A stretch of 64,000 nucleotides of DNA. Origin: Acetofilamentum sp. Lineage in GTDB: Bacteria > Hydrothermota > 32-111. The stretch's first letter is position 1; each line of letters opens with the position of its first letter. A program made the translations under genes and the position numbers. The notes under the pieces are model-generated. The model was given only the letters and a program-made list of their open reading frames with translations, made no database searches and was not told the origin of the DNA. The DNA is taken from contig DYMB01000002.1 of NCBI GenBank assembly GCA_020721805.1, forward strand, positions 43,899-107,898, read 5' to 3'. Positions 24,597-41,908 of the stretch are shown piece by piece.

Positions 24597-24636
24597 AATA
24601 AACGCGAAATGAAATTGGTAAAATGGGAGGTGGTAA

Positions 24637-24993
24637 ATGGTTGATAAAATTTTTGGTTTGATTAAGCTCACCATTTTTATTTTGATCGTTGGACTTTTGG
24701 GTTATAGCGGATGGCAGTATATGGTTATGGAGATTAAAAACTATCAAATCAAAGAAGAGATAACTAGAGTTCTTTATGGTGAAATAAGAAACGATGAATA
24801 TATCGTTAAAGAAAAAGTTCTTGAAAAACTTAACAAAAAGGGAGTTAATTTAACCTATGATGATCTGAATGTTGTAAAAGAAGAATACTCCTGCCATATT
24901 GAATTTACTTATATTGATTCAATAACTATACCTATTATCAAAAAATCTTTCTATTTTGAAAAGGAGATCAATACAACTGTTACACCTCAGTAA
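24637..24993 (+). CDS. Single-pass membrane protein, DUF4845-like shape
   Basis: This 118-residue protein has one N-terminal membrane helix (residues about 7-25) and a small soluble domain. The domain has a helical first half (KEEITRVLYGEIRNDEYIVKEKVLEKL) and a beta second half (VVKEEYSCHIEFTYIDSITIPII, then KKSFYFEKEI). That order resembles DUF4845 proteins, but I could not test it. A GGAGG ribosome site precedes the ATG. The 3' end overlaps the next gene's longest frame, and a terminator-like hairpin follows 35 bp after the stop. Confidence 0.55.
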   Translation: MVDKIFGLIKLTIFILIVGLLGYSGWQYMVMEIKNYQIKEEITRVLYGEIRNDEYIVKEKVLEKLNKKGVNLTYDDLNVVKEEYSCHIEFTYIDSITIPIIKKSFYFEKEINTTVTPQ

Positions 24994-26338: not shown

Positions 26339-26495
26339 CAGAAAAGTTTCTATCTCTCCAACATATAACCTGTGGTAATCTTTTTGTGGATAATGTTTTA
26401 AAAGTTCTTTTTTTATAAATTTGTTTTCTTTTTATATCATCATAATATATTTTTTTGCAAACTATGGCGAGTCTTGCCTGTTGGTATATTTCCAT
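26324..26495 (-). pseudogene. Possible small gene split by a frameshift at an A7 run
   Basis: On the minus strand an ATG at 26495 opens a frame coding MEIYQQARLAIVCKKIYYDD and onward to residue 29. A second frame continues as KKELLKHYPQKDYHRLYVGE and stops at TGA 26326-26324, 15 bp inside the 3' end of the convergent Omp85-like gene. The frames meet at seven consecutive A residues (26414-26408); loss of one A would join them into a 56-residue protein. It has its own promoter. The first frame does not stop here but runs on antisense to the neighbouring gene. It could be a real small gene with slippage, a sequencing error or a decayed gene. I recognise no family. Confidence 0.4.
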
Positions 26496-26510
26496 AACTA
26501 TTTTTTTAAT

Positions 26511-26538
26511 ATTATCCTTATCCTTTAGTTTATGTCAA
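26511..26538 (-). promoter_or_regulatory. Promoter facing the small minus-strand gene
   Basis: On the minus strand, consensus TTGACA (26538-26533), a 16-bp spacer and GATAAT (26516-26511). The expected start is about 9 bases ahead of the ATG at 26495, and no ribosome site is visible. Confidence 0.5.
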
Positions 26539-26560
26539 CTATTTATTTTATTGTTGACAT
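26532..26560. promoter_or_regulatory. Inverted repeat made of two divergent -35 boxes
   Basis: ATGTCAAC (26532-26539) and GTTGACAT (26553-26560) are perfect reverse complements separated by 13 bp. Each arm contains one of the divergent TTGACA boxes, so a dimeric regulator bound here could control both promoters. Confidence 0.4.
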
Positions 26561-26582
26561 TTAGAGAGCATTTTAATATATT
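26554..26582 (+). promoter_or_regulatory. Promoter of the polysaccharide locus (predicts a leaderless mRNA)
   Basis: TTGACA (26554-26559), a 17-bp spacer and TATATT (26577-26582). The normal start point, about 7 bases downstream, falls at or one base before the ATG at 26590. No ribosome site exists between them. Confidence 0.65.
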
Positions 26583-26589
26583 CTAAAAT

Positions 26590-27189
26590 ATGTATTATAA
26601 GATTAAAAATATTCTTGATATACTTTTTTCGTTGATATTGATAATTCTTTTAATGCCTTTATTTATTATAATTTCATTTTTAATATATCTTGATACAAAA
26701 AGACCTATCCTCTTTTTACAGGATAGGATCGGTAAGGATGGAAAAGTTTTTAAAATGATAAAATTCAGAACAATGTTTATTGGTGCGGAAAAGATGGGTA
26801 TTTATGAATTTAAAAATGATAAAAGAGTTACAAAAGTTGGTAAATTTTTAAGGTTAACATCACTTGATGAGATTCCACAGTTGTTCAATATCTTAAAGGG
26901 TGAAATGTCCTTTATAGGTCCAAGACCTGTTCTAACATATCATCCATTCAAATATGAAGAATATACAGAGATGCAGAAAAAAAGGTTTCTTGTCAAACCG
27001 GGTATAACCGGACTCGCTCAGATCAATGGAAGAAAAGAGATAGACTGGAATAAAAGGTTTGAATATGATATATTTTATGTTGATAATTTGAAATTGCTTC
27101 TTGATTTTAAAATTTTGATTTTAACCTTTAAAAATGTTCTATTGACAAAAAATAATTTAAATACAGAAGAAACTGTTAAAAAAAATTAA
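26590..27189 (+). CDS. Initiating sugar-phosphate transferase (bacterial sugar transferase, PglC/WcaJ type)
   Basis: This family moves a sugar phosphate from a UDP-sugar to undecaprenyl phosphate at the inner membrane, starting glycan assembly. The 199-residue protein is the minimal monotopic form: a basic start, one reentrant hydrophobic helix (residues about 10-33), then KMIKFRTM, RLTSLDEIPQLFNILKGEMS with the catalytic Asp-Glu, FIGPRPVL and VKPGITGLAQINGR. It is the first gene of an 11-kb locus and its start appears leaderless. The donor sugar is not predictable. Confidence 0.93.
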   Translation: MYYKIKNILDILFSLILIILLMPLFIIISFLIYLDTKRPILFLQDRIGKDGKVFKMIKFRTMFIGAEKMGIYEFKNDKRVTKVGKFLRLTSLDEIPQLFNILKGEMSFIGPRPVLTYHPFKYEEYTEMQKKRFLVKPGITGLAQINGRKEIDWNKRFEYDIFYVDNLKLLLDFKILILTFKNVLLTKNNLNTEETVKKN

Positions 27190-28008
27190 ATGGCATTAAG
27201 ATTTCTTTATATCACAAACAATACTGATGTAGCGCTTATAGCCCAGAAAAATGGTGTTGAATGGATTTTTGTGGATCTTGAGTTTCTTGGAAAATCTGAA
27301 AGACAGAAAGGGAAGGATAGTCTAATTTCAAATCATAAAATAGATGATGTAAAAAAAATAAGAAAAGTTTTAACCTTATCAAAATTACTCGTAAGAATAA
27401 ATCCTATACATAATGGAAGTGAAAATGAGATAAAAGAGGTTATTGATAATGGTGCCGATATTATAATGTTACCATATTTTAAAACTATGTTTGAAGTTGA
27501 AAAGTTTTTAAATTTTACATACGGAAAAATTAAGAGAATTCTTCTTCTGGAAACAAAAGGTTCTGTTGATTTACTAAAAAGTTTGATAAAGATAAAAGAA
27601 GTTGATTATTATTACATCGGATTAAATGATCTATCGATAGATTATGGATTTAAGTTTATGTTCGAACCGCTCGCTTACGGTTTGGTAGATGAGATCTCTG
27701 TCAAGATAAGATCAATCTCTAAAGAATTTGGATTTGGTGGAATAGCGACACTAGGCGGTGGACTCCTTCCAGCCGAATATATTCTTGCAGAACATTATAG
27801 ACTCGGATCCTCTATGGCTATACTATCAAGAAGTTTCTGTAATTTTAAAGATTACAAAAATATTTTAGATTTTGAAAAAAGATTTTCAGATGAACTAAAA
27901 AAAATAAGAGAATATGAAAAGATAGTTCAAAATATAGATAAGGATTTTTTTAAAACTAACAATGAAAAGATGAAAGAAATTGTGAAGAAAATTATTAAAA
28001 GGGGTTAA
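27190..28008 (+). CDS. HpcH/HpaI-family aldolase-like protein
   Basis: The sequence follows the HpcH/HpaI TIM-barrel pattern: VEWIFVDLEFLGK (the usual D-x-E), KLLVRINP (substrate Arg), GADIIMLPYF, ILLLETKGSVD and YYIGLNDLSIDYG. Members cleave or form 2-keto-3-deoxy or 3-hydroxy acids using a divalent metal and pyruvate-type donors. Finding one in a glycan locus, just before an asparagine-synthase-like gene and a 2-hydroxyacid dehydrogenase, suggests it makes an acyl precursor for sugar decoration. The reaction is inferred. It starts directly after the preceding stop. Confidence 0.75.
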   Translation: MALRFLYITNNTDVALIAQKNGVEWIFVDLEFLGKSERQKGKDSLISNHKIDDVKKIRKVLTLSKLLVRINPIHNGSENEIKEVIDNGADIIMLPYFKTMFEVEKFLNFTYGKIKRILLLETKGSVDLLKSLIKIKEVDYYYIGLNDLSIDYGFKFMFEPLAYGLVDEISVKIRSISKEFGFGGIATLGGGLLPAEYILAEHYRLGSSMAILSRSFCNFKDYKNILDFEKRFSDELKKIREYEKIVQNIDKDFFKTNNEKMKEIVKKIIKRG

Positions 28009-28009
28009 G

Positions 28010-29599
28010 ATGAATATTGAAATAAAAAAAGTTCTTGATGAGAGAAAAGATTTACAGAAATTTTTGTTCATCAAAGGGTTTCTTATAACAACAAAAGATA
28101 TAAAACCTCAAAGTGATAGATTTCCCCTTTACTCAAATTTTCAACTCAAAAAGATAAATGATTACAATTTTTGGATATATGATAAAGTTAATTTATTCTC
28201 TTATGAAATCAATGGAAAAATTTTTTTCTTAATAGGACACGCTTATAATCCATTTATTATGGAACATAACGAAAACAATATTTTAAAATATATATCAGAG
28301 GGTGAAGAAATAGGTGAAAAAGAATATTTCAATAGAATAGATCAACTAACTGGAATATTTATTACAGGTTTTATAGAAAAGGAGAGGATAAGATTTTTAA
28401 CTGATGCATCCGGGATGCAGTATGCCTGTTATGGTAAATATAAAGAAGATATTTTTATCTCTTCACATATTCAACTTGTAAACGATCTTCTTGATTTAAA
28501 AAGTATCGAATATGTTGATAAACTTATAAATTATAGATGGTATAAATATATGATGGGGAACTATCTACCCGGTGATCTGACACCTTTTGAAGAGTTTAAA
28601 AGACTGATCCCCAACACTTATGTTGATTACAAAAATAAAGAATTCAAAATTGGAAGGTTTTATCCTGTAAAACCTCTCGAATATGTTAAAGATAAAACTG
28701 AATATGGAAATCTTATTAAAGATGCTGCAGAAATAATGAGAAATAATATGAAATTGATATTGAAAAAATGGGGAAAACCGGCGATTTCTCTGACAGGTGG
28801 ATTGGATAGCCAGACAACACTTGCTGCAGCAAACGGTATGTATGATAAGTATTCAGTTTTCAGTTATATTTCAATGTTCAGGGAAAAAGTTGATACTGAA
28901 GTTGCCAAAAAAAAATCATCAAAGTTTAATATAAAACATACCATATACGATGTTCCGGAAAGAAACGAAGAAATAGAGGATTTTGAAATTTATAAAATGA
29001 TATTGATACATAATGAAGGGGAGATCGGAGAAAATAAAGATAACGATATAAGGAAAAAGATCTATCTGATGAAAAATTTTGATTATGATGTTGAAGTAAA
29101 AAATTGGATCGCCGAAACTTTCAGAGGTTACGCTTATAAATATTTTGGTAGAAAAAAATTTCATAAAAGTTTAAAGCCAAGAGATTATTCTTCATTGTAT
29201 AAAATATTTTTACTTGATAGAAAACTATTGTATGAAACAGATAAACATTTCAAAGATTACATTAAAAAAACAGAATTAAAGGAACATCTATTCAATTATG
29301 ATGAGACCGATCTTTTTGTTTGGGAGATGATGCATGGTGGAAAATGCGGACTAAATATTGGAGTTATGAAATTCTCTTTTGATATAACAATACCTTATAA
29401 TAACAGAAAACTTCTTGATATGTTATTGAGAACTGATATTAAGGATAGGATCGATGATAGGATTCATCTTCATTTAACAAAATATTTAAATGAAGAACTC
29501 TATAATATGAAATTGAGAAATGTCAACTTAAATGAAACAAGGCTGAGAAAATTTATGGCTAACATTTATTTCACCCTTAACACTTCCATACCATTCTGA
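28010..29599 (+). CDS. Asparagine-synthase-like ATP-dependent amide ligase lacking the glutaminase cysteine
   Basis: The C-terminal half has the PP-loop of asparagine synthetase, LTGGLDS (residues 261-267), which adenylates a carboxylate. The N-terminal half keeps the Ntn-fold outline (IDQLTGIFITGF, then DASGMQY) but begins MNIEI, so the Cys that follows the start Met in glutamine-hydrolysing enzymes is missing. It should therefore use free ammonia or another amine, as beta-lactam synthetase relatives do, and may join an acid to an amino sugar. Length is 529 residues. It overlaps the next gene by 1 bp. The substrate is unknown. Confidence 0.78.
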   Translation: MNIEIKKVLDERKDLQKFLFIKGFLITTKDIKPQSDRFPLYSNFQLKKINDYNFWIYDKVNLFSYEINGKIFFLIGHAYNPFIMEHNENNILKYISEGEEIGEKEYFNRIDQLTGIFITGFIEKERIRFLTDASGMQYACYGKYKEDIFISSHIQLVNDLLDLKSIEYVDKLINYRWYKYMMGNYLPGDLTPFEEFKRLIPNTYVDYKNKEFKIGRFYPVKPLEYVKDKTEYGNLIKDAAEIMRNNMKLILKKWGKPAISLTGGLDSQTTLAAANGMYDKYSVFSYISMFREKVDTEVAKKKSSKFNIKHTIYDVPERNEEIEDFEIYKMILIHNEGEIGENKDNDIRKKIYLMKNFDYDVEVKNWIAETFRGYAYKYFGRKKFHKSLKPRDYSSLYKIFLLDRKLLYETDKHFKDYIKKTELKEHLFNYDETDLFVWEMMHGGKCGLNIGVMKFSFDITIPYNNRKLLDMLLRTDIKDRIDDRIHLHLTKYLNEELYNMKLRNVNLNETRLRKFMANIYFTLNTSIPF

Positions 29600-30504
29600 T
29601 GAAAAGAATTTTATTAACCGGAGCATTAAATTTTGATGAAAATTTTAAAGAAAGAGTTGAAAAACTTGGTTTTAAGATATTTTACCATAAAGATGAGAAG
29701 AAAAATGTCCCAGAAGAGTATTTAAAGGTAGATGGGGTTGTATGTAACAATCTTTTTATCAAGAATGATATATCAAAATTTAAACATTTAAAGTTTATTC
29801 AACTAACGAGTGCTGGAATTGATAGATTACCGAACGAAAAAATAAAAAGAATGGGAATAAAGATCTTCACAGCAAAAAATGTTTATGCTATACCTATTTC
29901 AGAATGGGTTATAATGAGGATACTCGAGATATACAAAAATGTCAGAGAATTCGAAAAAATACAAAAAGAGCATAGGTGGGAAAAAATAAGGGATATTGAA
30001 GAGTTGACTGATAAAGTCGCAGGTATTATTGGTTATGGTAATATAGGTAAAGAGATAGCAAGAAGGTTGAAACCTTTTGGCGTAAAAATATATGTATGTG
30101 ATATTAAAAAAAGTGCAGATAAAAATGTTGATAAATTCTTCTCTTCACAAAAAATTGATATTTTTTTAAACCAGATAAATATTTTAATCTTAACTTTACC
30201 TTTAACAAAAAAGACAAAAGGGTTAATAGATATAAAAAAAATGGATCTGATGAAAAATGATTCCTTAATTATAAATGTTTCAAGAGGTGCAATTATAAAA
30301 GATGAAGATCTTAAAAAAATTTTGCAAAGGGGTAAATTTAAAGGAGTATATCTTGATGTTTTTGAAAATGAACCACTTTTTGAAGATGATCCTCTGTGGG
30401 ATTATAAAAATGTTTATATAACACCCCATAACAGTTTTGTATCGGAAAAGATAAATGACAGGTTGTTAAATTTAATATTTAAAAATCTAAAAAAAATGTT
30501 ATGA
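29599..30504 (+). CDS. D-isomer-specific 2-hydroxyacid dehydrogenase
   Basis: The NAD-binding domain has GIIGYGNIGKEIARRLKPFG (about residues 139-158), with an acidic residue after the second strand (VCDIKK). NVSRGAIIKDEDL and the late TPHNSF carry the family's catalytic Arg/His surroundings. Such enzymes reduce 2-keto acids to D-2-hydroxy acids. Length (301) is slightly short. Its position between an amide-ligase-like gene and a glycosyltransferase suggests it makes a hydroxyacid building block for the glycan. The substrate is inferred, not seen. It overlaps both neighbours by 1-4 bp. Confidence 0.85.
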   Translation: MKRILLTGALNFDENFKERVEKLGFKIFYHKDEKKNVPEEYLKVDGVVCNNLFIKNDISKFKHLKFIQLTSAGIDRLPNEKIKRMGIKIFTAKNVYAIPISEWVIMRILEIYKNVREFEKIQKEHRWEKIRDIEELTDKVAGIIGYGNIGKEIARRLKPFGVKIYVCDIKKSADKNVDKFFSSQKIDIFLNQINILILTLPLTKKTKGLIDIKKMDLMKNDSLIINVSRGAIIKDEDLKKILQRGKFKGVYLDVFENEPLFEDDPLWDYKNVYITPHNSFVSEKINDRLLNLIFKNLKKML

Positions 30505-31607
30505 AAAGAATTCTTTTAATTTCACCTAAAAATAGAACCGTATACAATTTCAGAGGGGATCTTATAAAGGATCTGCAAAAAAAGGGATTTCAGGTCTTTG
30601 TTTCAATACCAGATTTAACAAACATAGAAAAGATTGAAGAGTTGAATGTTTCTTACAGGGTAATAAAATTATCCAAACATGGTTTAAACTTTTTTGATGA
30701 TTTAAACTATATTTTGAATTTAACAAAATATATCAAAGAGATAAAGCCAGATTTAATACTAGCCTATACTGTAAAACCTATAGTTTACGGTTCAATATCT
30801 ACCAGAATATCGGGTGTTAAAAATTTTTATTCAATGGTTGAAGGTTTAGGATTCATCTTTATTTCAAAGAGTATAAAAGCAAAAATCTTGAATGTTATTA
30901 TAAGATATCTTTACAAATTAGCGTTTAAATTATCAAAAAAAATAATTTTTCTTAACGATGATGATTTAAAACTCTTTACGATGTCAGGGATAACTAAAAA
31001 AGAAAAATCTTTTGTTGTTAACGGAGCAGGAGTCAATCTTGAAAAATTCAAACCATTACCTTATCCAGAAAAAATAACTTTTTTCATGCTATCAAGACTT
31101 TTAAAGAGTAAAGGGGTTATGCAATACCTTTATGCCTGTGAAAAGATTAAAAGAGAATATCCACAAATAGAATGCATACTTCTTGGAAAAATTGAAAATA
31201 TGCCGGATGCTATACCAGAAAAAGAGATTATGAAATTTATTGAAAATGGTGTTGTTGAACTTTTTGGTGAGACTGAAAATGTTATAGATTTTTATAAAGA
31301 ATCATCAGTTTATGTTTTAACTTCATACAGGGAAGGGGTTCCAAGGACTGTTCTTGAAGCGATGGCCTGTGCAAGACCCATAATAGTTACAGATGTTCCC
31401 GGATGTAGAGAAACCTTGAAGGAAGGGTATAATGGATTCTTTGTTCCCTTAAACGATGTTGATAAACTTGTTGAAAAAATGGAATGGTTTATAAAAAATG
31501 AAGATAAGATTCAAATACTTGGTAAAAATTCTTACGAACTTTGTGTTGAAAAGTTTGATGTTAAAAAAGTCAATAAAAGTTTATTGAAAATAATGCAGAT
31601 AGATTAA
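30501..31607 (+). CDS. Glycosyltransferase family 4 (PglA/CapM-like)
   Basis: A two-Rossmann GT-B retaining glycosyltransferase. The N-terminal half (RILLISPKNRTVYNFRGDLI, IKPDLILAYTVKPIVYGSI, YSMVEGLGFIF) resembles PglA-type enzymes that add the second sugar to an undecaprenyl-linked primer. The C-terminal half has SRLLKSKGV and the E-x7-E motif REGVPRTVLEAMACARPII. No membrane segment is obvious beyond a basic hydrophobic patch. It overlaps the dehydrogenase by 4 bp. The donor and acceptor are unknown. Confidence 0.88.
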   Translation: MKRILLISPKNRTVYNFRGDLIKDLQKKGFQVFVSIPDLTNIEKIEELNVSYRVIKLSKHGLNFFDDLNYILNLTKYIKEIKPDLILAYTVKPIVYGSISTRISGVKNFYSMVEGLGFIFISKSIKAKILNVIIRYLYKLAFKLSKKIIFLNDDDLKLFTMSGITKKEKSFVVNGAGVNLEKFKPLPYPEKITFFMLSRLLKSKGVMQYLYACEKIKREYPQIECILLGKIENMPDAIPEKEIMKFIENGVVELFGETENVIDFYKESSVYVLTSYREGVPRTVLEAMACARPIIVTDVPGCRETLKEGYNGFFVPLNDVDKLVEKMEWFIKNEDKIQILGKNSYELCVEKFDVKKVNKSLLKIMQID

Positions 31608-31642
31608 CAATTAATCTTATATGGTTCAACTTGAGGTTTAAT

Positions 31643-32737
31643 ATGATAAGAGTTTTACAGGTTTTCGGAAGAATGGATAGAGGTGGCTCTGAGACCTTGA
31701 TGATGGAGATTTATAGAAATATTGATAGAAAAAAGATTCAATTTGATTTTCTTGTTCATACTAACGAAAAATGTGCATACGATGAAGAGATTCTTTCACT
31801 GGGTGGTAGGATTATAAGGGCCCCAAGATATAATATTTTCAATCATTTCTTTTACATTAAAATTTTAAAAAATATTTTCCAGAAAAATGAAAATAACTGG
31901 AAGATAGTCCATAACCATTACTATACTATATCTTCATTGATTTTTAAAGTTTTAAAAGATAAAAATATTAAATATATTGTCCATTCCCACAATGCCTCTG
32001 TCGGTTATAACATTACAGGGTTGATAAGAAGTTTAATGGTTAAAGATATAAAAAATTGTGATTGTATAAAATTTGCCTGCTCAAAGAAGGCTGGTGAATT
32101 CTTATTCAAAGATAAAAGTTTTTTTCTTTTTAATAACAGTATAGATGTTAAAAAATTTATATTTGATCCTATGTTAAGAAACAAATTGAGAAAAGAGTTA
32201 AATTTAGAAGGTAAAATAGTGATAGGACATGTTGGTAGTATTTTTTATCCCAAAAATCATTCTTTTTTAATAGATATTTTTTATGAATTTCAAAAATTAA
32301 AAAAGGATTCAATCTTGATTTTGGTTGGAAAGGGTGATATGGAAAGAAGGATAAGAAGAAAGGTGAAAAATTTAAATTTAGAAAAAAAAGTAATATTTTT
32401 AGGTGTAAGAAATGATGTTAACAGAATTTTAAACTCTTTTGATATTTTTGTCTTCCCTTCTCTATACGAAGGATTAGGAATAGTTTTAGTAGAATCTCAA
32501 GCAAATGGGTTAAAATCTATAGTCTCTGATAGGATTACAAAAGAGGTAAGAATAACCGAACTTGTTGATTTCTTACCTCTTGAAATGGGTGCAGAATACT
32601 GGGCAAAATATATATTAAATTCACTTGATTATGAAAGGAAAGATAGGATTGATGAATTAACAAAAGCAGGGTATGATGTTTTAGAAAATACCAGATGGCT
32701 TGAAAAGTTTTATGAGGAACTGATAACAAAAAAATGA
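31643..32737 (+). CDS. Glycosyltransferase family 4 (EpsF-like)
   Basis: A GT-B enzyme with the family's N-terminal loop RMDRGGSETLMMEIYR, the HSHNAS segment, GHVGSIFYPKNHSFLI opening the C-terminal domain and the E-x7-E motif PSLYEGLGIVLVESQANG. I take the ATG at 31643, which follows TTGAGG at good spacing and gives the normal MIRVLQVFG start; the frame is open a little further upstream to a TTG at 31631. A 35-bp gap without promoter or terminator separates it from the previous gene. It overlaps the next by 4 bp. Confidence 0.88.
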   Translation: MIRVLQVFGRMDRGGSETLMMEIYRNIDRKKIQFDFLVHTNEKCAYDEEILSLGGRIIRAPRYNIFNHFFYIKILKNIFQKNENNWKIVHNHYYTISSLIFKVLKDKNIKYIVHSHNASVGYNITGLIRSLMVKDIKNCDCIKFACSKKAGEFLFKDKSFFLFNNSIDVKKFIFDPMLRNKLRKELNLEGKIVIGHVGSIFYPKNHSFLIDIFYEFQKLKKDSILILVGKGDMERRIRRKVKNLNLEKKVIFLGVRNDVNRILNSFDIFVFPSLYEGLGIVLVESQANGLKSIVSDRITKEVRITELVDFLPLEMGAEYWAKYILNSLDYERKDRIDELTKAGYDVLENTRWLEKFYEELITKK

Positions 32738-34008
32738 GAAAAATCTGGATTCTATTTTTTATACTGATTATTTTAACTTCTCTCTTTAAACCTTTAATAG
32801 GTGATTTTGAATTCGCTTCTTTATTCTTTGTTTTGATAGATTTTTCATTATCACTCTTAATCCTTCTACAGTTTAAAACTAAATTTAAATATATTTTTAT
32901 TTTAGGTTTTATTTTAAGAGTTTTTGTAATCTTCTGGGATATCTATTTTAAAAATATCTTCAGTTTACCCAATTCAGGGGCTGATTCTGAAGGTTATTAT
33001 TATTATGCGATTCAAATATCAAATTATGAATCTTTTACAGATTTTTTTACAAGAGGTGGTATCTATTCTTTTATAAATGGGATATTATTCTATCTAATTG
33101 GACCACAAAGAATGGTAGGTCAATATTTAAATGTTCTTTTTGGATTAAATATGATCATTCTGACAAAAAAAATATTTGATCTTTTGAATATAAGTGAAAA
33201 AAATAAATTTTATTCTATTTTGATAATCTCTTTATTTCCAAATTCATTGATAATGTCTGGAATTTTTTTAAGAGAGAGTATTATTTCATTTTTAACGACT
33301 CTATCACTCTATTATTTTACATTATGGTTTAAAAATGGAAAGAACAGATTTTTATTTTATAATGTTATAACAATTTTGTTAGCATCTCTCTTTCATTCAG
33401 GTATGTTATCACTTCTATTTGGATTTATTTTTCCATTTTTATTTTATTCATCCGAAAGAAAGAAATTTTATTTTACAAAGAGAACCATAATGACTTTTGG
33501 ATTCTTTATATTTGTTTTCTTTATAATATATTTTAGATTTTCCGATATTTTCTTGATGAAATTTAATGGAATAGAACAGATAGGGGATTATTATAATACT
33601 ATAAATTTACGACTTGGTGGTTCAGCATATTTGAGAAATTTAAGAATAGATTCACCATTACTATTGTTTTTATTTGGACCGATTAAATTTATCTATTTTT
33701 ATATTTCACCTTTACCATTCGATTGGAGAAACATTTTTGATCTTATTACTTTTTTCCTTGATGCTTTTTTATATTTAATTATAATAATAGAAATTTTCTA
33801 TTTTCTTATAAAAAACAAAAGTTTTTATTTAGAAAAGGAATACATTATTAGCCTTATTCTGGTAATATTGATAACAGCAATAATCTTTGGTTCAGGTGTC
33901 GGAAATACAGGTTCAGCCTTAAGACACAGGTATAAATTTGTTTCAATTTTTATAATTTTATTTGGTTTATTATCAAAAGATAATAAATTGGTCAGGAAAG
34001 AAATATGA
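32734..34008 (+). CDS. Polytopic membrane protein, probable polysaccharide polymerase (Wzy-like) or GT-C transferase
   Basis: About ten hydrophobic helices span the 424 residues. A periplasmic-type loop after helix 3 has NSGADSEGYYYYA, an acidic motif like the first loop of GT-C enzymes. LFPNSLIMSGIFLRESIISFL is similar to a segment seen in many Wzy/EpsG-like proteins of glycan loci. Position between glycosyltransferases and the flippase gene makes a polymerase the best guess. Wzy proteins are too diverse to confirm by eye. Confidence 0.65.
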   Translation: MRKIWILFFILIILTSLFKPLIGDFEFASLFFVLIDFSLSLLILLQFKTKFKYIFILGFILRVFVIFWDIYFKNIFSLPNSGADSEGYYYYAIQISNYESFTDFFTRGGIYSFINGILFYLIGPQRMVGQYLNVLFGLNMIILTKKIFDLLNISEKNKFYSILIISLFPNSLIMSGIFLRESIISFLTTLSLYYFTLWFKNGKNRFLFYNVITILLASLFHSGMLSLLFGFIFPFLFYSSERKKFYFTKRTIMTFGFFIFVFFIIYFRFSDIFLMKFNGIEQIGDYYNTINLRLGGSAYLRNLRIDSPLLLFLFGPIKFIYFYISPLPFDWRNIFDLITFFLDAFLYLIIIIEIFYFLIKNKSFYLEKEYIISLILVILITAIIFGSGVGNTGSALRHRYKFVSIFIILFGLLSKDNKLVRKEI

Positions 34009-35234
34009 AAATATTATATGTAACAGGTTTAACGATTCCTTTAAAGGATCTATTGAAAGGTAAAAAAGAAGAACAAATAACAGGGCTGCCAGGGTTCTAT
34101 TATCCCTGGAAATATCTTGTAAAAAAAGGACATCAGGTTGATTTTGTTTTCATTTCAAACTTTAAAGAAAAATATAAGATAACTGTTGATTGGTTTAATG
34201 AAAAAAATATTTTAGCCAATATTTATGCTCCATATAAAGAATATAGATTTATGAGATTCTTAAGACAGATATTCAGATTGATACAACTTTTTTATTACAC
34301 TTCAAAGGCTCTTAAAGTCAAGAAATATGATTTTATATATTGTAAGAGTTATGAAGGATTCGCAGGACAGGTTCTTTCAAAAATATATAAGATACCATCA
34401 GGTATAAGATTGTTTGGAGATTTTACTTTTTGTTATAATGATATAAAAAAATATGGTAATTTGAAAGCGATAATGAAACATCCTTTAGAATATTTATCCT
34501 TTAAAGTTGGAGCCAATTTTTTACTTGCAACCGATGATGGTAGTAATTGTGATGATCTGTTTAAAATGTGGGGAAATAAAAAGACTAAATTTTATTTCTG
34601 GAAAACTGGAATAGATCTAAATCTACCAAAAGATGAAAAAATCAATATAAAATTGCCAGAAAATTTTTTGTACTATCCTGCAAGATATGTTGATTGGAAA
34701 AGACAGGATAGGGCGTTGAAAATACTTAAGTTACTATTTGATAAAAATATAAAAAATGTATATTTGATCTTTACTGGAAATTTAACTTCAATTGAACATT
34801 ACAACAATTTACAAAAAAAAGCAAAAGAATACAGTATAGAAAATAATGTGATATTTGAAAAGGAGGTTGTTCAAAATCAAATGAGGTTGATTTCACAGAA
34901 ATCATTAGCAAATATACTTGTTGCTGATCATTCAAATCTGGGAAATGTTTTTTATGAGATTTTATCTTCAGGTTCGGTTGTTATATCATTTAAAAATAAA
35001 GGACTTGATGAATTCATAGTTGATGGTTATAATGGCTTTCTTGTTGATGATGAGGAGGGATTTGTAGAGAATATAAAAAAAATTATTTATGGAAAGATAG
35101 ATATTAAAAGGATAAAAGAAAATGCCAGAAAGACCGCTCTTGAAAGATTTCTATCTCTGGAAGAAAGATTTTTAAAAGAGGTTGAATTGATAGAAAAGAC
35201 TGCACAAAAAAATAACAAAAATCTAAAAATATGA
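34005..35234 (+). CDS. Glycosyltransferase family 4
   Basis: A GT-B enzyme of 409 residues. The N-terminal domain starts MKILYVTGLTIPLKD and has the YDFIYCKSYEGFAGQVLSKI segment. The C-terminal domain has YYPARYVDWKRQDRALKIL and NVIFEKEVV. The acidic pair is in NVFYEILSSGSVVISF and GLDEFIVDGYNGFLVDD. It is less close to well-known members than the other two family-4 genes here. It overlaps both neighbours by 4 bp, consistent with coupled translation. Donor and acceptor are unknown. Confidence 0.8.
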   Translation: MKILYVTGLTIPLKDLLKGKKEEQITGLPGFYYPWKYLVKKGHQVDFVFISNFKEKYKITVDWFNEKNILANIYAPYKEYRFMRFLRQIFRLIQLFYYTSKALKVKKYDFIYCKSYEGFAGQVLSKIYKIPSGIRLFGDFTFCYNDIKKYGNLKAIMKHPLEYLSFKVGANFLLATDDGSNCDDLFKMWGNKKTKFYFWKTGIDLNLPKDEKINIKLPENFLYYPARYVDWKRQDRALKILKLLFDKNIKNVYLIFTGNLTSIEHYNNLQKKAKEYSIENNVIFEKEVVQNQMRLISQKSLANILVADHSNLGNVFYEILSSGSVVISFKNKGLDEFIVDGYNGFLVDDEEGFVENIKKIIYGKIDIKRIKENARKTALERFLSLEERFLKEVELIEKTAQKNNKNLKI

Positions 35235-36703
35235 AGATTAAAATAGGATTAAACTCCTTGATTCTTACTATAGTTAGACTTTTTAATTTAACTATAATGA
35301 TTCTTTTTTTTATGATATTAACAAGATTTCTATCCTTATACGATTATGGGACATTTTCCCAGATTTTAATTACAACAAATCTCTCTACGGTTGTCCTGAG
35401 TTTAGGACTATCATCGAGTGTTAATTATTTTTTTTCTAAATCTGAAAGTCAAAAGGAAAAGGAAGATTTTTTATCAGTTTTATTTTCAACAATTTTTATA
35501 ATTTCATTTTTTATCGGCATAATTTTATTATTTTTCACTCCCTATATTTCTAAATATTTTGATAATAGAAATCTTTTATTTTACTCTTACGCTTTTATAT
35601 TTTTACCTTTCTGTATAATTAGTAAAGAGAGTTTTGATAATATTCTTATAGTTTCAAACAGAATATATTCACTTATGGTATTTAGAATTATACTCTCTTT
35701 ACTACTTCTTCTGGTTGTTTTTTCAAGTTATATTTTTAAACTAAACTTTGGTCATTTTTTGATACAATATATTTTTGTTGAAATGATTTTATCAGTTATT
35801 TTTATCTTTTATATTTATTTTAAAATTATAAGATTTAAATTCCGATTAAATTTTTATCTGATCAAATCTATTCTAAAATTTTCAATTCCCCTTGGTCTTG
35901 CATCGACTCTATCAACGATAAATATAGAACTTGATAAATTTGTGATAGGCAGGTTTTTTGATACAGAAAGACTCGCCATTTACACAAATGGTTCAAAAGA
36001 GATGCCTGTTACGATAATTTCATTTTCAATCGTTTCCATTTTATTACCCATAATCGTAAAAGAGATAAAAGATAAAAATTATGATAAAGTTTTAGAACTC
36101 TGGAATATGTCGAATCGTATCTCTCTGATCATTGTTTCATTTTTTATCTCACTATTTTTTGTCTTTGCACCTGAATTGATCACCATCTTATACTCATCAA
36201 AATATATCGAGTCGGTTACCATTTTCAGGATATATTCATTGATTCTATTTTTAAGGTTCACCTATTTTGGGATAATACTCAACGCCTCTGGAAAAACAAG
36301 TTTTATCCTGTATACTTCTTTTCTTTCACTGATATTGAATCTGATTTTAAACATATTATTCGTAAAAATTTTTGGTTTTGTTGGACCCGCTATATCAACC
36401 TTTTTATGTTCTATTGTAGCAGCCTTTTTACAGGTCTATTATTCTCTTGATATATTAAAAATTAAATTTTCAAAAATTTTTGAATGGAAAAGAATTTTTA
36501 TAGTAATTTTTAATACTCTATCTTTCACTGTTATACTTTTTGTTCTTAAAATTTTTCTTTTAAAATTCAGGTTTAATCAATACTTGATATTTATCTTTCT
36601 TTCTATACTATTTGGTTTATTCTATTTCTTTTTCTTTTATAAAAAAGAATTATTTACCTTATGGAACAAATTGAACGATTATAAAGAAAAGGGGAGTGCT
36701 TAA
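35231..36703 (+). CDS. Polysaccharide flippase (Wzx-like, MOP superfamily)
   Basis: The 490-residue protein has 12-14 hydrophobic helices and a Wzx/MurJ-type layout: an N-terminal RFLSLYDYGTFSQILI (the common L-x-x-x-x-Y-G-x-F/Y motif), LGLASTLSTINIELDKFVIGRF in the middle and GPAISTFLCSIVAAFLQV late. It should move the lipid-linked glycan unit across the inner membrane for polymerisation. Its last base overlaps the first base of the acyltransferase gene. Confidence 0.88.
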   Translation: MKIKIGLNSLILTIVRLFNLTIMILFFMILTRFLSLYDYGTFSQILITTNLSTVVLSLGLSSSVNYFFSKSESQKEKEDFLSVLFSTIFIISFFIGIILLFFTPYISKYFDNRNLLFYSYAFIFLPFCIISKESFDNILIVSNRIYSLMVFRIILSLLLLLVVFSSYIFKLNFGHFLIQYIFVEMILSVIFIFYIYFKIIRFKFRLNFYLIKSILKFSIPLGLASTLSTINIELDKFVIGRFFDTERLAIYTNGSKEMPVTIISFSIVSILLPIIVKEIKDKNYDKVLELWNMSNRISLIIVSFFISLFFVFAPELITILYSSKYIESVTIFRIYSLILFLRFTYFGIILNASGKTSFILYTSFLSLILNLILNILFVKIFGFVGPAISTFLCSIVAAFLQVYYSLDILKIKFSKIFEWKRIFIVIFNTLSFTVILFVLKIFLLKFRFNQYLIFIFLSILFGLFYFFFFYKKELFTLWNKLNDYKEKGSA

Positions 36704-37308
36704 TGAAAAAAATTATCGGTTTTTTTTATTATTTTATTATTTTTTTAATTGGCATTTCAGTATCTTTTATTATTTATGACAGAAAATATTTAAAATCAAA
36801 ATGGTTTAAAAAGCCATCTATAATCTATGCACCCGGATGGTCCTGGGTTGTAAAAGATTTTATGGGTAGAATCTTTTTACACAAAAATGTAACAGTAAAT
36901 TTCCCAATCTCACCATTTTGCACTGTAATAAATTATAAAAATATTCTTTTTGATCCAGATCAGATAAATATTTTTCAAATGAACGGTTCATATTTTCAAG
37001 CCTGGGATGATGCTAAAATAATCATAGGGAAAAATGTCTGGATTGCTCCAAATACTGGTATAATTACAACAAACCATGATTTATATGATCCAAATAAGCA
37101 TTCACCCGGAAAAGATATAATAATTGGTGATGATTGCTGGATTGGAATGAATTCAGTTATTCTTCCAGGGGTGGTTATTGGTAAAAAAACTGTTGTTGGT
37201 GCTGGTTCAATAGTTACAGAAAGTTTTCCAGAGGGTAAATGCGTGATCGCTGGAAATCCTGCAAAAATAATAAAGAATTTAGATTTTAATGATGATTCTG
37301 ACTCTTAA
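36703..37308 (+). CDS. Left-handed beta-helix (hexapeptide) acyltransferase
   Basis: An N-terminal membrane helix (residues 3-24) precedes a hexapeptide-repeat domain with IIIGKNVWIAPNTGIITTNH, then IIIGDDCWIGMNSVILPGVV and TVVGAGSIVTESFPEG, ending AGNPAKIIK. The NH-x-x-x-x-x (NHDLYDP) segment carries the catalytic His of maltose/serine-type acetyltransferases. The membrane anchor suggests that it acetylates lipid-linked glycan intermediates at the inner membrane. It is the last gene of the locus. No terminator is seen after it; the next gene has its own promoter. Confidence 0.85.
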   Translation: MKKIIGFFYYFIIFLIGISVSFIIYDRKYLKSKWFKKPSIIYAPGWSWVVKDFMGRIFLHKNVTVNFPISPFCTVINYKNILFDPDQINIFQMNGSYFQAWDDAKIIIGKNVWIAPNTGIITTNHDLYDPNKHSPGKDIIIGDDCWIGMNSVILPGVVIGKKTVVGAGSIVTESFPEGKCVIAGNPAKIIKNLDFNDDSDS

Positions 37309-37359
37309 AAAAAACAAAATAATTTAAAAAATAGATACAATCAATTTCAAAATTCACAA

Positions 37360-37387
37360 TTGACTGTAAAAAATAAAAGTTTATAAT
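37360..37387 (+). promoter_or_regulatory. Promoter of the S9 peptidase gene
   Basis: TTGACT (37360-37365), a 16-bp spacer and a perfect TATAAT (37382-37387) are followed by AAAGGAGA and the ATG at 37410. Confidence 0.7.
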
Positions 37388-37409
37388 ATAAAATTAAAAG
37401 GAGAAAAAT

Positions 37410-39515
37410 ATGTTTAGGAAGAAAAAATTTTTATTTTTTATTCTTTTATTTACTTTTATTTTAATATTTTCAAAAGAACTTAAAATTTTAAAACCACCGA
37501 TTGCCATAAAGGAAGCATATTATACTTCTATACACGATACGACTATTCTTGATAACTATCATTATTTTAGAAATATTGATGATAAGAGGGTAATCGATTA
37601 TATCAAAGAAGAGAATGAATATACTGATAGGATGATGTTAAAGACAAAAAAATTACAGGAAAAATTATACAATGAAATTTTAAAAAGGGTTGATAAAAAT
37701 GAGATATCCTTACCTGAAAGAAGAGATTCTTTTCTATACTACTATAAGGATCTGAAGGGGAAAAATTATCAAATATTTTGCAGAAAGAAAAACAGGAAGA
37801 ATGAAAAGGAAGAAGTTATTCTTGATGTTAATCAAATCGCAAAAGGTCATCAATTCTTTGATATAAACCTGCTGGAAGTTTCCTCAGATCATAAACTTCT
37901 ATCTTATTCAACTGATACTCTTGGGAACGAAGTATACACTTTAAAGATTCTTGATATTGAAACTAAAAAATTACTCGATTTACCCCAAATAACAAACATA
38001 ACATCTTTCGCTTTTAATAAGTATAACGATGGATTCTTCTATACTGTTCAAAATGAGATCTCAAGATCTTATGCTTTACATTTCTTTGATATGATAATGA
38101 AAAAGGATACATTGCTTTACGAGGAACCTGATGAAAAGTTTTCAGTCTATATATATAAATCTAAAAATCTTGATTATATTTTCCTTTCGATTTCAAGTTC
38201 AAAAACGAGTGAATATTATTATTTACAGAGCAGTGATAGAGAGTTGAAATTGAATCTCCTTGTAAAGAGAGAGGAAGGAATAGAATATTCTTTTGATCAA
38301 AGTGGAAAATATTTTTATTATTTAACAAACAAAGAATGTATAAATTTTGATTTTAAAAGGTTCAGGATAGATTCTACCATTGAAAATTCGAATACTATTG
38401 TAAAAGGTAATGATACACTTATGATAGAGGGTTTTGATTGTTTTGAAAAATTTATTTCAATCTATGAAAGAGTAAATGGAAGCAAAAAATTAAAATTCTT
38501 TTATTTAAACACCGAAGAGTCAAAATATTATGACTTTGAAGAGACAAATTGTATATTTTACCCTTTATCAAACATATCATTTAAAAGGGATAGTTTCAGG
38601 GTATCCTACAATTCTTTAAAAACTCCTTCCCAAATAATAGATATAGATGTATGGTCTTTGAAAGGTGTTGTCAAAAAAGTTGATAAGATAAAAGGGTATA
38701 ATAAAGATAACTATCAAACAGAGTATATTCTTGTTCAAGCATCAGATGGCGAACTTGTTCCATTATCACTTGTTTATAACAAAAAACTTAAAAAGGAAAA
38801 TATGCCATGTTTGTTGACAGGTTATGGTTCATATGGTTTTCCTCAAGACCCCTATTTTTCAAAGATTAGATTATCTTTACTTGACAGGGGAGTCATCTAT
38901 GCGATAGCACATGTAAGGGGTGGGAGTGAAAAAGGAAGAAAATGGTATCTTGATGGAAAACTTTTAAATAAAATAAACACTTTTACAGATTTTATTTCGT
39001 GCGCTGAATATCTTATAAAAAATAATTATACTTCACCTAATAAACTTGCTATTGAAAGCGCAAGCGCTGGAGGACTTTTGATAGGAAATGCACTTAACAG
39101 GAAACCAGAGATTTTTGGCGGCGCTATTCTTTCTGTTCCATTCGTTGATCTTTTAAATACAATGCTTGACACATCCTTACCATTAACTACAGGAGAATTT
39201 GAAGAATGGGGAAATCCTAAAGAAAAAGAATATTTCAACTATATGCTTAAATATAGCCCTTATGATAACATAAAAGAAGATAATTATCCACCAATACTTG
39301 TTAAATCATCGCTATTTGATGCAAGAGTTATGTTCTGGGAACCATTAAAATGGGTCGCTAAAATGAGAGAAAATAAACTTGATAATAACCCATTGCTTTT
39401 AAAAATGGAATTGACTGGTGGACATTCTGGAAGTTCTAGTAAGTATTTACGGTATAAAGATATATCCTTTGATTATGCTTTTTTACTTTATTATGTTTGG
39501 AATATCTATAAGTAA
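37410..39515 (+). CDS. Prolyl oligopeptidase-family serine peptidase (S9A, oligopeptidase B-like), exported
   Basis: A signal peptide (1-21) is followed by a seven-bladed propeller and a C-terminal alpha/beta hydrolase. The likely triad is Ser552 in ESASAGGLLIG, Asp637 in SLFDARV and His672 in GGHSGSS. HVRGGSEKGRKWY precedes the nucleophile, as in oligopeptidase B. The usual Gly two residues before the nucleophile is Ser550. Such enzymes cut short peptides after Pro or basic residues. With the M6 and C25 proteases at 5-15 kb it fits periplasmic digestion of imported peptides. It is monocistronic, and its 3' end is one base from the convergent next gene. Confidence 0.9.
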   Translation: MFRKKKFLFFILLFTFILIFSKELKILKPPIAIKEAYYTSIHDTTILDNYHYFRNIDDKRVIDYIKEENEYTDRMMLKTKKLQEKLYNEILKRVDKNEISLPERRDSFLYYYKDLKGKNYQIFCRKKNRKNEKEEVILDVNQIAKGHQFFDINLLEVSSDHKLLSYSTDTLGNEVYTLKILDIETKKLLDLPQITNITSFAFNKYNDGFFYTVQNEISRSYALHFFDMIMKKDTLLYEEPDEKFSVYIYKSKNLDYIFLSISSSKTSEYYYLQSSDRELKLNLLVKREEGIEYSFDQSGKYFYYLTNKECINFDFKRFRIDSTIENSNTIVKGNDTLMIEGFDCFEKFISIYERVNGSKKLKFFYLNTEESKYYDFEETNCIFYPLSNISFKRDSFRVSYNSLKTPSQIIDIDVWSLKGVVKKVDKIKGYNKDNYQTEYILVQASDGELVPLSLVYNKKLKKENMPCLLTGYGSYGFPQDPYFSKIRLSLLDRGVIYAIAHVRGGSEKGRKWYLDGKLLNKINTFTDFISCAEYLIKNNYTSPNKLAIESASAGGLLIGNALNRKPEIFGGAILSVPFVDLLNTMLDTSLPLTTGEFEEWGNPKEKEYFNYMLKYSPYDNIKEDNYPPILVKSSLFDARVMFWEPLKWVAKMRENKLDNNPLLLKMELTGGHSGSSSKYLRYKDISFDYAFLLYYVWNIYK

Positions 39516-39516
39516 T

Positions 39517-40275
39517 TTAAAAAGTTAAAGTCTCAGAAGGGTAATCGTAAGGAGCGATTATAAACTTTAAATTATTGAAATTTAATCTGTTAACAACCTC
39601 TTCTTCAACATTTTTCATAGAATTTGTTCTTTTACTTAAATGATGTAAAAATATATACTTAAGATTTGGATTATAAAGTTTAAGTATCACTTTTAAAGTA
39701 TCCTCATTTGAAAGGTGTCCTTTAGTTGAATCTATTCTTTTTTTTAGTTCAACTGGATAAAATGAGTTATAAAGAAGTTCAATCGAGTGGTTTGATTCTA
39801 TTATAAGTAGATTGATATCTGAAAGTAGGTTTATTATTTTATCATCGAAACTTCCCATATCAGAAAGAAAACCAATCTTTTTATCTTTGTAAATTATTTT
39901 AAATCCAGCATTTACCATATCATGTTCTATAAAAAATGGTAAGATTTCAAAATCTAAGATATTAAATTTTTCTAAATATTGAAAAAATGTTTTGTTTGTA
40001 TAGTTTGTATAAAGTTTTTTATAAAGAATGTTAAAATAGATCCTTACATTTGGTAATCTTTTGATTATAGAATCAAGACCATTAAAATGGTCTCTATGAA
40101 AATGTGTTATAATTATTGCTTTTACATTATTTATATCTAAAAATTTATCCTTTAAAAGTTTTGAAGTCTTTTTGAATGATATACCTGCATCTATAAGAAT
40201 TAGATTATCTGGTTGAGAGTATAAAATAAAAGAGTTTCCATCAGAACAACTTGATAGGGAGAAAAAATTCACCAT
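39517..40275 (-). CDS. MBL-fold metal-dependent hydrolase (YycJ/WalJ-like)
   Basis: The metallo-beta-lactamase motif is THFHRDH with H58, H60, D62 and H63. The N-terminal SSCSDGNSFILY and LILIDAGISFKKTSKLL segments and the late FLHHLSKR match the YycJ/WalJ group, which has 5' to 3' DNA exonuclease members. Length is 252. It is the first gene on the minus-strand side of the coding-strand switch. A perfect DnaA box abuts its start codon. The precise substrate is not known. Confidence 0.8.
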   Translation of the reverse strand: MVNFFSLSSCSDGNSFILYSQPDNLILIDAGISFKKTSKLLKDKFLDINNVKAIIITHFHRDHFNGLDSIIKRLPNVRIYFNILYKKLYTNYTNKTFFQYLEKFNILDFEILPFFIEHDMVNAGFKIIYKDKKIGFLSDMGSFDDKIINLLSDINLLIIESNHSIELLYNSFYPVELKKRIDSTKGHLSNEDTLKVILKLYNPNLKYIFLHHLSKRTNSMKNVEEEVVNRLNFNNLKFIIAPYDYPSETLTF

Positions 40276-40284
40276 TTATCCACA
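40276..40284 (+). promoter_or_regulatory. DnaA box (TTATCCACA) abutting a start codon
   Basis: A perfect 9-bp match to the high-affinity DnaA box, immediately upstream of the minus-strand ATG at 40275. A second copy in the same orientation lies 74 bp away. Confidence 0.5.
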
Positions 40285-40349
40285 ACCTTTAAACATTTTA
40301 AGTTATTAAAATTTTAAATTTACAAAAAAATTTGATTGAAATAGAAAAA

Positions 40350-40358
40350 TTATCCACA
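40350..40358 (+). promoter_or_regulatory. DnaA box (TTATCCACA), second copy
   Basis: A perfect match in the same orientation as the copy at 40276-40284, within the same 264-bp intergenic region. Its role may be regulatory or DnaA titration; gene orientation argues against an origin here. Confidence 0.5.
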
Positions 40359-40474
40359 AGTTGATATTTTAAAATTTTTAAAAGATTTATAAAAAAAAAT
40401 AGCATCAAAATAAATAGCATAAAGATATTTTTTTAAATATAAGGTTAACAAACTATCTATTTTATTAGTATACA

Positions 40475-40502
40475 ACTTTACATAATATATATTATCGGGT
40501 AT
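40475..40502 (-). other. dif: Candidate dif site (XerC/XerD chromosome-dimer resolution site)
   Basis: Read on the minus strand, the 28 bp are ATACCCGATAA, TATATA and TTATGTAAAGT, the 11-6-11 layout of dif. The XerD-side arm agrees with the B. subtilis arm TTATGTAAACT in 10 of 11 positions, and the TATATA centre matches too. The XerC-side arm ends in the usual ATAA. The site is intergenic and lies within 1 kb of the point where gene direction flips from plus to minus. It is the only such sequence I saw in the window. Confidence 0.8.
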
Positions 40503-40539
40503 TGCATATATATACATAAATTGGACTGGTATAATGAAA

Positions 40540-41301
40540 TTATTTATTGTTAGCCCCTTTTTTCTCTTCTTTGTTGTAAATCTGAGTTAAAGGATCTATT
40601 GCACCTTCTAAAAGATTTTTTTGAACATATGCTTGTTGTGAATAAGTTGTATTTTTAAAAAGATAGATTATTTTTTCATAAGTATTAAGAGCCTCTTCAA
40701 CCTGATATTTTGCTTCATAGTATCTTGCAAGTCCAAGATATGCTTCTGGAGTATAAGCGTTTGTTGGCAATTTTTCTATCGCATAATTGTAGTAAACAAA
40801 GGCTGAATCAATTTGATTTAAACCCTCAAAAGATTTTGCTATTCCTATATATGCCGCAGATCTTATTTCATCCATACCTATTTTGAATTTCAAAAACTGT
40901 TTAAAACTCTTTATAGCATTGTTATAGTTCTCTTCTGGATTTTTTTGCATAGTGGCGATATTTAAATTACACATTCCTATATAGTAATTTGACATTTTTG
41001 AAGCGTTTGTGCCATAATAAGTTTGTTTTATGTTTGTAAACAACTCAACTGCCTGTTTGAAATCTCCAGAAACATATATATCAAGTGCTCCAGTCATTTC
41101 AAGTTGAGAATTTTTTTCTTTAGCATTGAAAGTCGATTTGAAGGATAGAATTATAATTATTGCAAGTATTAAAACTGAAAACCCGATAAAAAGATATCTC
41201 CACCGAGCCTTTCCCCAATTATAGAGATTTAAAACTGATTCTACGAATCTATCCCTTTTTAACTCTTTTTTTGTTACTTTTACTTTTTTTACTATTGCCA
41301 T
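40540..41301 (-). CDS. Single-pass membrane protein with TPR repeats (YfgM/BamD-like)
   Basis: A cytoplasmic basic N-terminus (residues 1-33), one membrane helix (about 36-54) and a TPR domain make up the 253 residues. Repeats include ALDIYVSGDFKQAVELFTNI, AAYIGIAKSFEGLNQIDSAF and AYLGLARYYEAKYQVEEALN. The layout resembles YfgM, a partner of the SecYEG and periplasmic chaperone network, but identity cannot be fixed by eye. A GGAGATATT site precedes the ATG. It lies 16 bp downstream of tRNA-Arg and is probably the last gene of the long minus-strand cluster. Confidence 0.7.
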   Translation of the reverse strand: MAIVKKVKVTKKELKRDRFVESVLNLYNWGKARWRYLFIGFSVLILAIIIILSFKSTFNAKEKNSQLEMTGALDIYVSGDFKQAVELFTNIKQTYYGTNASKMSNYYIGMCNLNIATMQKNPEENYNNAIKSFKQFLKFKIGMDEIRSAAYIGIAKSFEGLNQIDSAFVYYNYAIEKLPTNAYTPEAYLGLARYYEAKYQVEEALNTYEKIIYLFKNTTYSQQAYVQKNLLEGAIDPLTQIYNKEEKKGANNK

Positions 41302-41317
41302 AATATCTCCTTTTTAT

Positions 41318-41390
41318 TGCCCCTGACAAGAATCGAACTTGTGGCCCTCTGTTTAGGAAACAGATGCTCTATCCACTGAGCTACAGGGGC
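41318..41390 (-). tRNA. tRNA-Arg (anticodon CCT)
   Basis: On the minus strand the acceptor GCCCCTG pairs with CAGGGGC. The anticodon stem TCTGT/ACAGA carries loop TTCCTAA (anticodon CCT, reading AGG), and the T arm CAAG/CTTG carries loop TTCGATT. The discriminator is A and CCA is not encoded. It begins 5 bp after the apt stop and ends 16 bp before the next gene, so it must be processed from a longer mRNA. Confidence 0.95.
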
Positions 41391-41395
41391 ATTTT

Positions 41396-41908
41396 TTAAA
41401 AGTGAATTATACTTGATATTGTGTAATTTTCAAGTTTTTTCCTTCCATTTAAGAAATCCAGTTCTATTAAAAATGTTATCCCATAAACTTTACCACCACT
41501 TTTTTCAACCAGTTTTGCAGCAGCATTCATTGTTCCTCCAGTTGCAAGAAGATCATCAACAAGGAGTATATTCTCATCCTTATTTACAGCATCGATGTGC
41601 ATCTCTATCGTTGCATTCCCATATTCGAGTTTATATGTTTCTTCAAAAGTTTTATATGGTAGTTTCCCCTTTTTTCTTATCGGGACAAAACCTTTGTTAT
41701 ACTTGTTTGCAAGTGCAATACCAAAAATAAAACCTCTCGATTCTATTCCGGCAATTTTGTCGATTCTGGAAAAATCAAAATTTTTACCCATAAGATCTAT
41801 AGATTTTTTGAAAGCATAAGGGTCAAGGATTACAGGTGTAACATCCTTAAAGATTATGCCTTTAACAGGAAAATCTGGAATGTCCCTTATAAGATTTTTT
41901 AAATCCAT
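41396..41908 (-). CDS. apt: Adenine phosphoribosyltransferase
   Basis: Apt makes AMP from adenine and PRPP (purine salvage). The PRPP-binding motif is ILLVDDLLATGGT, preceded by the GIESRGFIFG loop and the flexible FVPIRKKGKLPYKT segment. The 170-residue length is typical. It is followed after 5 bp by tRNA-Arg, which seems to share its transcript. It lies 11 bp downstream of acyP, within the long minus-strand cluster that also holds purH, purL and purQ, in keeping with a purine theme. Confidence 0.95.
   Translation of the reverse strand: MDLKNLIRDIPDFPVKGIIFKDVTPVILDPYAFKKSIDLMGKNFDFSRIDKIAGIESRGFIFGIALANKYNKGFVPIRKKGKLPYKTFEETYKLEYGNATIEMHIDAVNKDENILLVDDLLATGGTMNAAAKLVEKSGGKVYGITFLIELDFLNGRKKLENYTISSIIHF

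Follow-up and report, generated by a model that had tools for sequence, protein, structure and literature searches.

A 28-bp sequence in the window (the 64,000-nucleotide stretch of DNA analyzed here) is, with high confidence, predicted to be a functional chromosome-dimer-resolution site (dif) at a replication terminus. From its sequence, it is almost certainly a dif of the ordinary, XerCD type, here in a little-studied uncultured phylum, candidate division WOR-3 (Caldifarciminota in the NCBI naming). The window corresponds to positions 43899 to 107898 of contig C49 (full span 132,106 bp) in a 1.70-Mb genome (G000); this genome is a draft of 74 contigs, and dif was therefore placed on its contig and not on a closed map. 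The analysis covered this one contig in full, stretches of others, and the remainder of the genome through searches. The case for dif is carried by conservation and GC skew. Sequence analysis shows (i) the site itself, its uniqueness and its conservation; (ii) its location at a skew switch; and (iii) genes for XerC, XerD and an FtsK with gamma domain. XerCD binding, the order of cleavage and FtsK control would be as in E. coli and B. subtilis. The elements of the site and the adjoining spacer were as follows.

40475 to 40502, minus strand: predicted dif site, 28 bp (ATACCCGATAA TATATA TTATGTAAAGT), recognized by its sequence, single copy, identity of the 23-bp core in the congener and phylum consensus
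40492 to 40502, minus strand: XerC-side arm, ATACCCGATAA; inner GATAA invariant across close sites by column conservation of 26 sites, an alignment in which the search pattern itself fixed or nearly fixed the GATAA bases
40486 to 40491, minus strand: central 6 bp, TATATA, the putative strand-exchange region; positions 1 and 2 variable and the last four nearly fixed in the aligned sites
40475 to 40485, minus strand: XerD-side arm, TTATGTAAAGT, by column conservation
40276 to 40474, no strand: AT-rich non-coding spacer between dif and an MBL-fold gene, 2.6 kb long with extra genes in the congener and holding a half-site array in sister genera

The site has the dif layout of two 11-bp, partly dyad arms flanking 6 bp, and the 11-6-11 XerC/XerD arrangement proposed for it in the first-pass annotation was found exactly at the stated position, read on the minus strand. 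It is non-coding and occurs once per chromosome; the suggested scan for a second copy recovered a single match to the 23-bp core in the whole genome at zero to two mismatches. The sole match at three mismatches (C65:45788) is most simply a promoter, as it includes TATAAT and has divergent genes on either side. By column conservation, the outer base of the XerD arm is G in the window site and its family and C in most of the phylum.

The genes and the skew signal around the site were examined for their position relative to dif, and the following features were identified.

40540 to 41301, minus strand: TPR protein with YbgF-like repeats (Pfam/NCBIfam); dif lies 3′ of its end, and the gene marks dif by synteny in two families
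41317 to 41391, minus strand: tRNA-Arg(CCT), conserved neighbor (ARAGORN; matching stretch in L005)
41396 to 41908, minus strand: adenine phosphoribosyltransferase (APRT), conserved neighbor (annotation and L005 ORF)
39517 to 40275, minus strand: MBL-fold hydrolase, flanking dif opposite the TPR gene (Pfam PF12706)
39515 to 39517, no strand: gene-orientation switch between convergent S9 peptidase and MBL genes (ORF table; same in the congener, L042 17623/17625)
40691 (contig 84589), no strand: maximum of cumulative GC skew for the contig as a whole (132 kb), ~190 bp from dif

The ORF table bore out the earlier observation that the plus strand carries every gene between 17.8 and 39.5 kb and the minus strand every gene between 39.5 and 64 kb. 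Among the genes called on the complete 132-kb contig, 68 of 82 to the left of dif are on the plus strand and 44 of 46 to the right are on the minus strand. The claim that the coding strand switches at dif held only as far as convergence nearby is concerned: the S9 peptidase gene ends at 39515 and the MBL gene at 39517, and dif is 0.96 kb from this convergent pair, in a gap between two minus-strand genes. Nor is that gap (40276 to 40539, 264 bp) the only sizeable one of the region, as had been stated, since another at 26339 to 26589 is of similar length (251 bp). Two perfect DnaA-box words, TTATCCACA, were noted inside the dif gap at 40276 to 40284 and 40350 to 40358; the first lies right against the start codon of MBL, and in L042, too, the word precedes the MBL start.

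Conservation was examined by searching the same gap in relatives, as the first-pass annotation had advised, and a dif site adjoining the TPR gene was recovered from the congener, from further genera of its family and from two members of another family. Each of the refuting conditions named in that annotation (several copies, no skew change, no conservation among relatives) was checked, and none was found to hold. The congener (G001) has an identical core, CGATAATATATATTATGTAAAGT, ~40 bp past the stop codon of its TPR gene, and the bases flanking it on both sides differ from the intergenic DNA of the window. The two genomes share the order purL, purQ, phosphoglucomutase, SLOG, APRT, tRNA-Arg, TPR, dif ... 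MBL, S9 peptidase (genes paired by position, strand and length), with 2.6 kb of additional DNA between dif and MBL in the congener. This segment (L042 14284 to 16864) begins immediately past dif and includes an acyltransferase-like membrane protein, recognized by eye, and two other ORFs. Beyond the congener, dif follows the 3′ end of this TPR gene in G002, G003 and G004 (family f1, as is G001) and in G005 and G008 (family f2), all with dif sequences similar to that of the window; TPR homologues were found to adjoin dif in G001, G004 and G005, and the gene past the dif gap in G002 and G003 is again MBL-like.

Across 147 WOR-3 genomes, a strict 18-base pattern matched in 24 genomes, and its reversed control gave zero matches. 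Each genome had one matching place except G002, whose two matches look like one locus on two overlapping contig ends with differing array lengths. A profile built from dif sites extended the matches to 79 of the 147 genomes, nearly all matched once, with 68 left without a match; a loose pattern allowing two mismatches gave chance matches too numerous for use. Information content in the aligned sites was limited to about 28 to 31 bp, with none beyond, and here the pattern partly fixed the inner bases but left free the outer positions (C before YGATAA, C/G-T after TTATGTAAA). The resulting consensus was TGTC(C/T)GATAA-nnTATA-TTATGTAAACT, with AAAG replacing AAAC in the family of the window. The XerD arm TTATGTAAA was nearly invariant in the 26 sites and was kept in most of the profile-found sites that were read. 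No mention of a WOR-3 dif site was found in the literature searched. The consensus (about YGATAA-nnTATA-TTATGTAAA) is well supported and provides the uncultured phylum with a dif sequence and a terminus marker, which helps to orient and check WOR-3 assemblies.

The skew data supported the proposal of a probable replication terminus: the recommended cumulative GC skew analysis placed the extremum of the 132-kb contig at the site. The skew peak also lay close to the site in three relatives, at −32 bp in G001 (peak taken within 40 kb around the site), +144 bp in G034 and +1 bp in G110. The switch does not merely reflect gene orientation, because (i) the minus-strand genes to the left of dif have a third-codon-position skew of +0.066, thus keeping the plus-strand sign; and (ii) the intergenic skew changes sign across dif, from +0.144 on the left to −0.108 on the right. 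Of 21 relatives, 18 had the higher skew to the left of the site (sign test, p = 0.0015, the relatives not being independent). The contrast was absent in G115, G074 and G018; for G115, an assembly of one contig, the whole-replicon skew (35 samples) was noisy, with no clear extremum at the site. The skew of contig C38 reaches its minimum (36729) within dnaA (35518 to 36861), where gene orientation diverges. The KOPS word GGGNAGGG was distributed 7:0 on the contig of the window in the expected direction, a bias estimated to be no stronger than leading-strand G-richness gives.

The genome was also scanned for xerC and xerD, as had been suggested, and both were present, together with an FtsK with gamma domain encoded on C18. 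Exactly two tyrosine recombinases (PF00589) are encoded in the genome, on C65 and C69, and thus on contigs other than that of dif. The C65 recombinase was identified as XerD (340.5 bits versus a cut-off of 329.6). The best model for the C69 recombinase was XerC, at 308.7 bits and below the curated NCBIfam cut-off of 335.15, and this XerC candidate also passed the archaeal XerA model; the Xer active-site residues were inspected only visually. On the pattern of known systems, the ATACCCGATAA arm would be the binding site of XerC and the TTATGTAAAGT arm that of XerD. Where an odd number of crossovers joins the sister chromosomes, FtsK would pump DNA at the septum until both dif copies meet, its gamma domain would activate XerD, and XerD, then XerC, would exchange strands across TATATA to yield monomers. 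As described for XerCD/dif (PMC5357621), FtsK drives synapsis of two dif copies at the septum, its gamma domain activates XerD, and the strands are exchanged across the 6 central bp. The WOR-3 dif consensus also shows the XerCD/FtsK system to be standard in this phylum.

When compared with proteobacterial and B. subtilis dif/XerCD, the window site is alike in its 28-bp 11-6-11 layout, XerD arm TTATGTAAA, single copy and AT-rich, intergenic setting, and in lying at a GC-skew switch in a genome with two Xer recombinases and an FtsK-gamma (PMC2731167, PMC5357621). It differs in the outer G of the XerD arm (usually C in the phylum), the CYGATAA XerC arm and its conserved TPR-gene neighbor, the xer genes being located elsewhere. 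The difH/XerH and difSL/XerS systems likewise have terminus-linked Xer sites, but these use a single recombinase and another motif and usually adjoin the xer gene (PMC2731167), in contrast to the two recombinases on other contigs found here. A difH/XerH assignment was considered and rejected, as neither a single linked xerH gene nor a TGAAAAC-type motif was present.

The close likeness to known dif sequences noted in the first-pass annotation was barely above chance for DNA this rich in AT. The deltaproteobacterial sites of Syntrophus (TTGTCCTATAAGATATATTATGTAAACC) and Myxococcus (AGGTCCGATAACATGCGTTATGTAAACT), which differ in organism and outer arm positions, are identical to the window site at 20 to 21 of 28 positions, and the window site ranked first for four of five distant proteobacterial dif queries (one tie). 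As the maxima of simulated contigs were also 20 to 21, sequence likeness alone is weak evidence, and an AT-rich intergenic stretch resembling dif by chance could reach the same score. Chance is nevertheless excluded by the conservation of the site, since the core is kept base for base at one syntenic place in diverged relatives, which is already sufficient to refute it; the phylum-wide consensus, with no control matches in the strict search, and the coincidence with the skew maximum further reduce this explanation to a negligible likelihood.

We also considered whether the site might be an attachment site or remnant of a mobile element that exploits Xer (IMEX) instead of a chromosomal dif, given that the congener has a 2.6-kb segment directly past dif and that phage-like contigs with similar sites exist. 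The congener segment was found to hold no second dif, and no degenerate copy was detected at its far end or at 20.0 to 40.5 kb of the window; with one copy per genome and vertical synteny over two families, a mobile origin is very improbable, if slightly less so than chance. A replication origin or other protein-binding element would be in keeping with the occurrence of TTATCCACA twice in 83 bp, compared with about 1.7 expected per 132 kb. This word, however, was not found near any of the 24 other sites examined, skew and gene orientation converge at dif rather than diverge, and dnaA marks the skew minimum of a different contig; such a function is extremely improbable. Chromosomal dif remains the reading most consistent with these data.

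Arrays of XerD half-sites were identified in sister genera, outside the window. In G002, G003 and G004, the TPR-dif-MBL gap holds an expanded array in which the right half of dif is repeated, in most copies in the orientation opposite to that of dif. Each unit consists of the central bases, the XerD arm and a GWTGG flank, and reads TAT(A/G)TTATGTAAA(T/C)G(A/T)TGG, with the GTTGG or GATGG flank matching that of each genome's own dif.

L197 12659 to 12886 (G002, contig C37): half-dif array of five units, period 50 to 59 bp, one degenerate
L199 242 to 581 (G004, contig C50): half-dif array of five half-sites
L241 1 to 660 (G003, contig C100): half-dif array with >600 bp of units

The G003 assembly breaks at dif and units appear at the start of C100, upstream of an MBL-like gene; the dif contig and C100 are inferred to join there. 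Direct and inverted copies pair in G003 and G004 (e.g., TTATGTAAAGATGG-nnnn-CCATCaTTTACATAA), sometimes in a hairpin-like manner. The units had no matches elsewhere in the genomes of G002, G003 and G004 and were not found in G000, G001, G005 and G008, and XerD half-sites on the contig of the window did not cluster near dif. According to work cited in PMC12322038, XerD unloads SMC in B. subtilis. By analogy, the arrays might form a dedicated XerD-binding array at the terminus, e.g., for SMC unloading, a putative role that we regard as rather unlikely. ScpA is encoded in G000, G001, G002 and G004; in the first of these the gene for this SMC partner is on the same contig as dif (window about 599 to 1234; C49:44497-45132). 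The half-site arrays of the sister genera offer a testable lead on terminus organization.

Two further observations were made. A low-GC block (about 0.25 to 0.30) at 24000 to 40000 of the window ends next to the terminus and includes polysaccharide-biosynthesis genes (flippase-like, hexapeptide transferase). In addition, 55 viral contigs of IMG/VR (L142 to L196) carry GATAAnnTATATTATGTAAA, many of them with full dif arms, GTCYGATAA..TTATGTAAACT; these include some of about 4 to 6 kb and possibly represent Xer-integrating phages.
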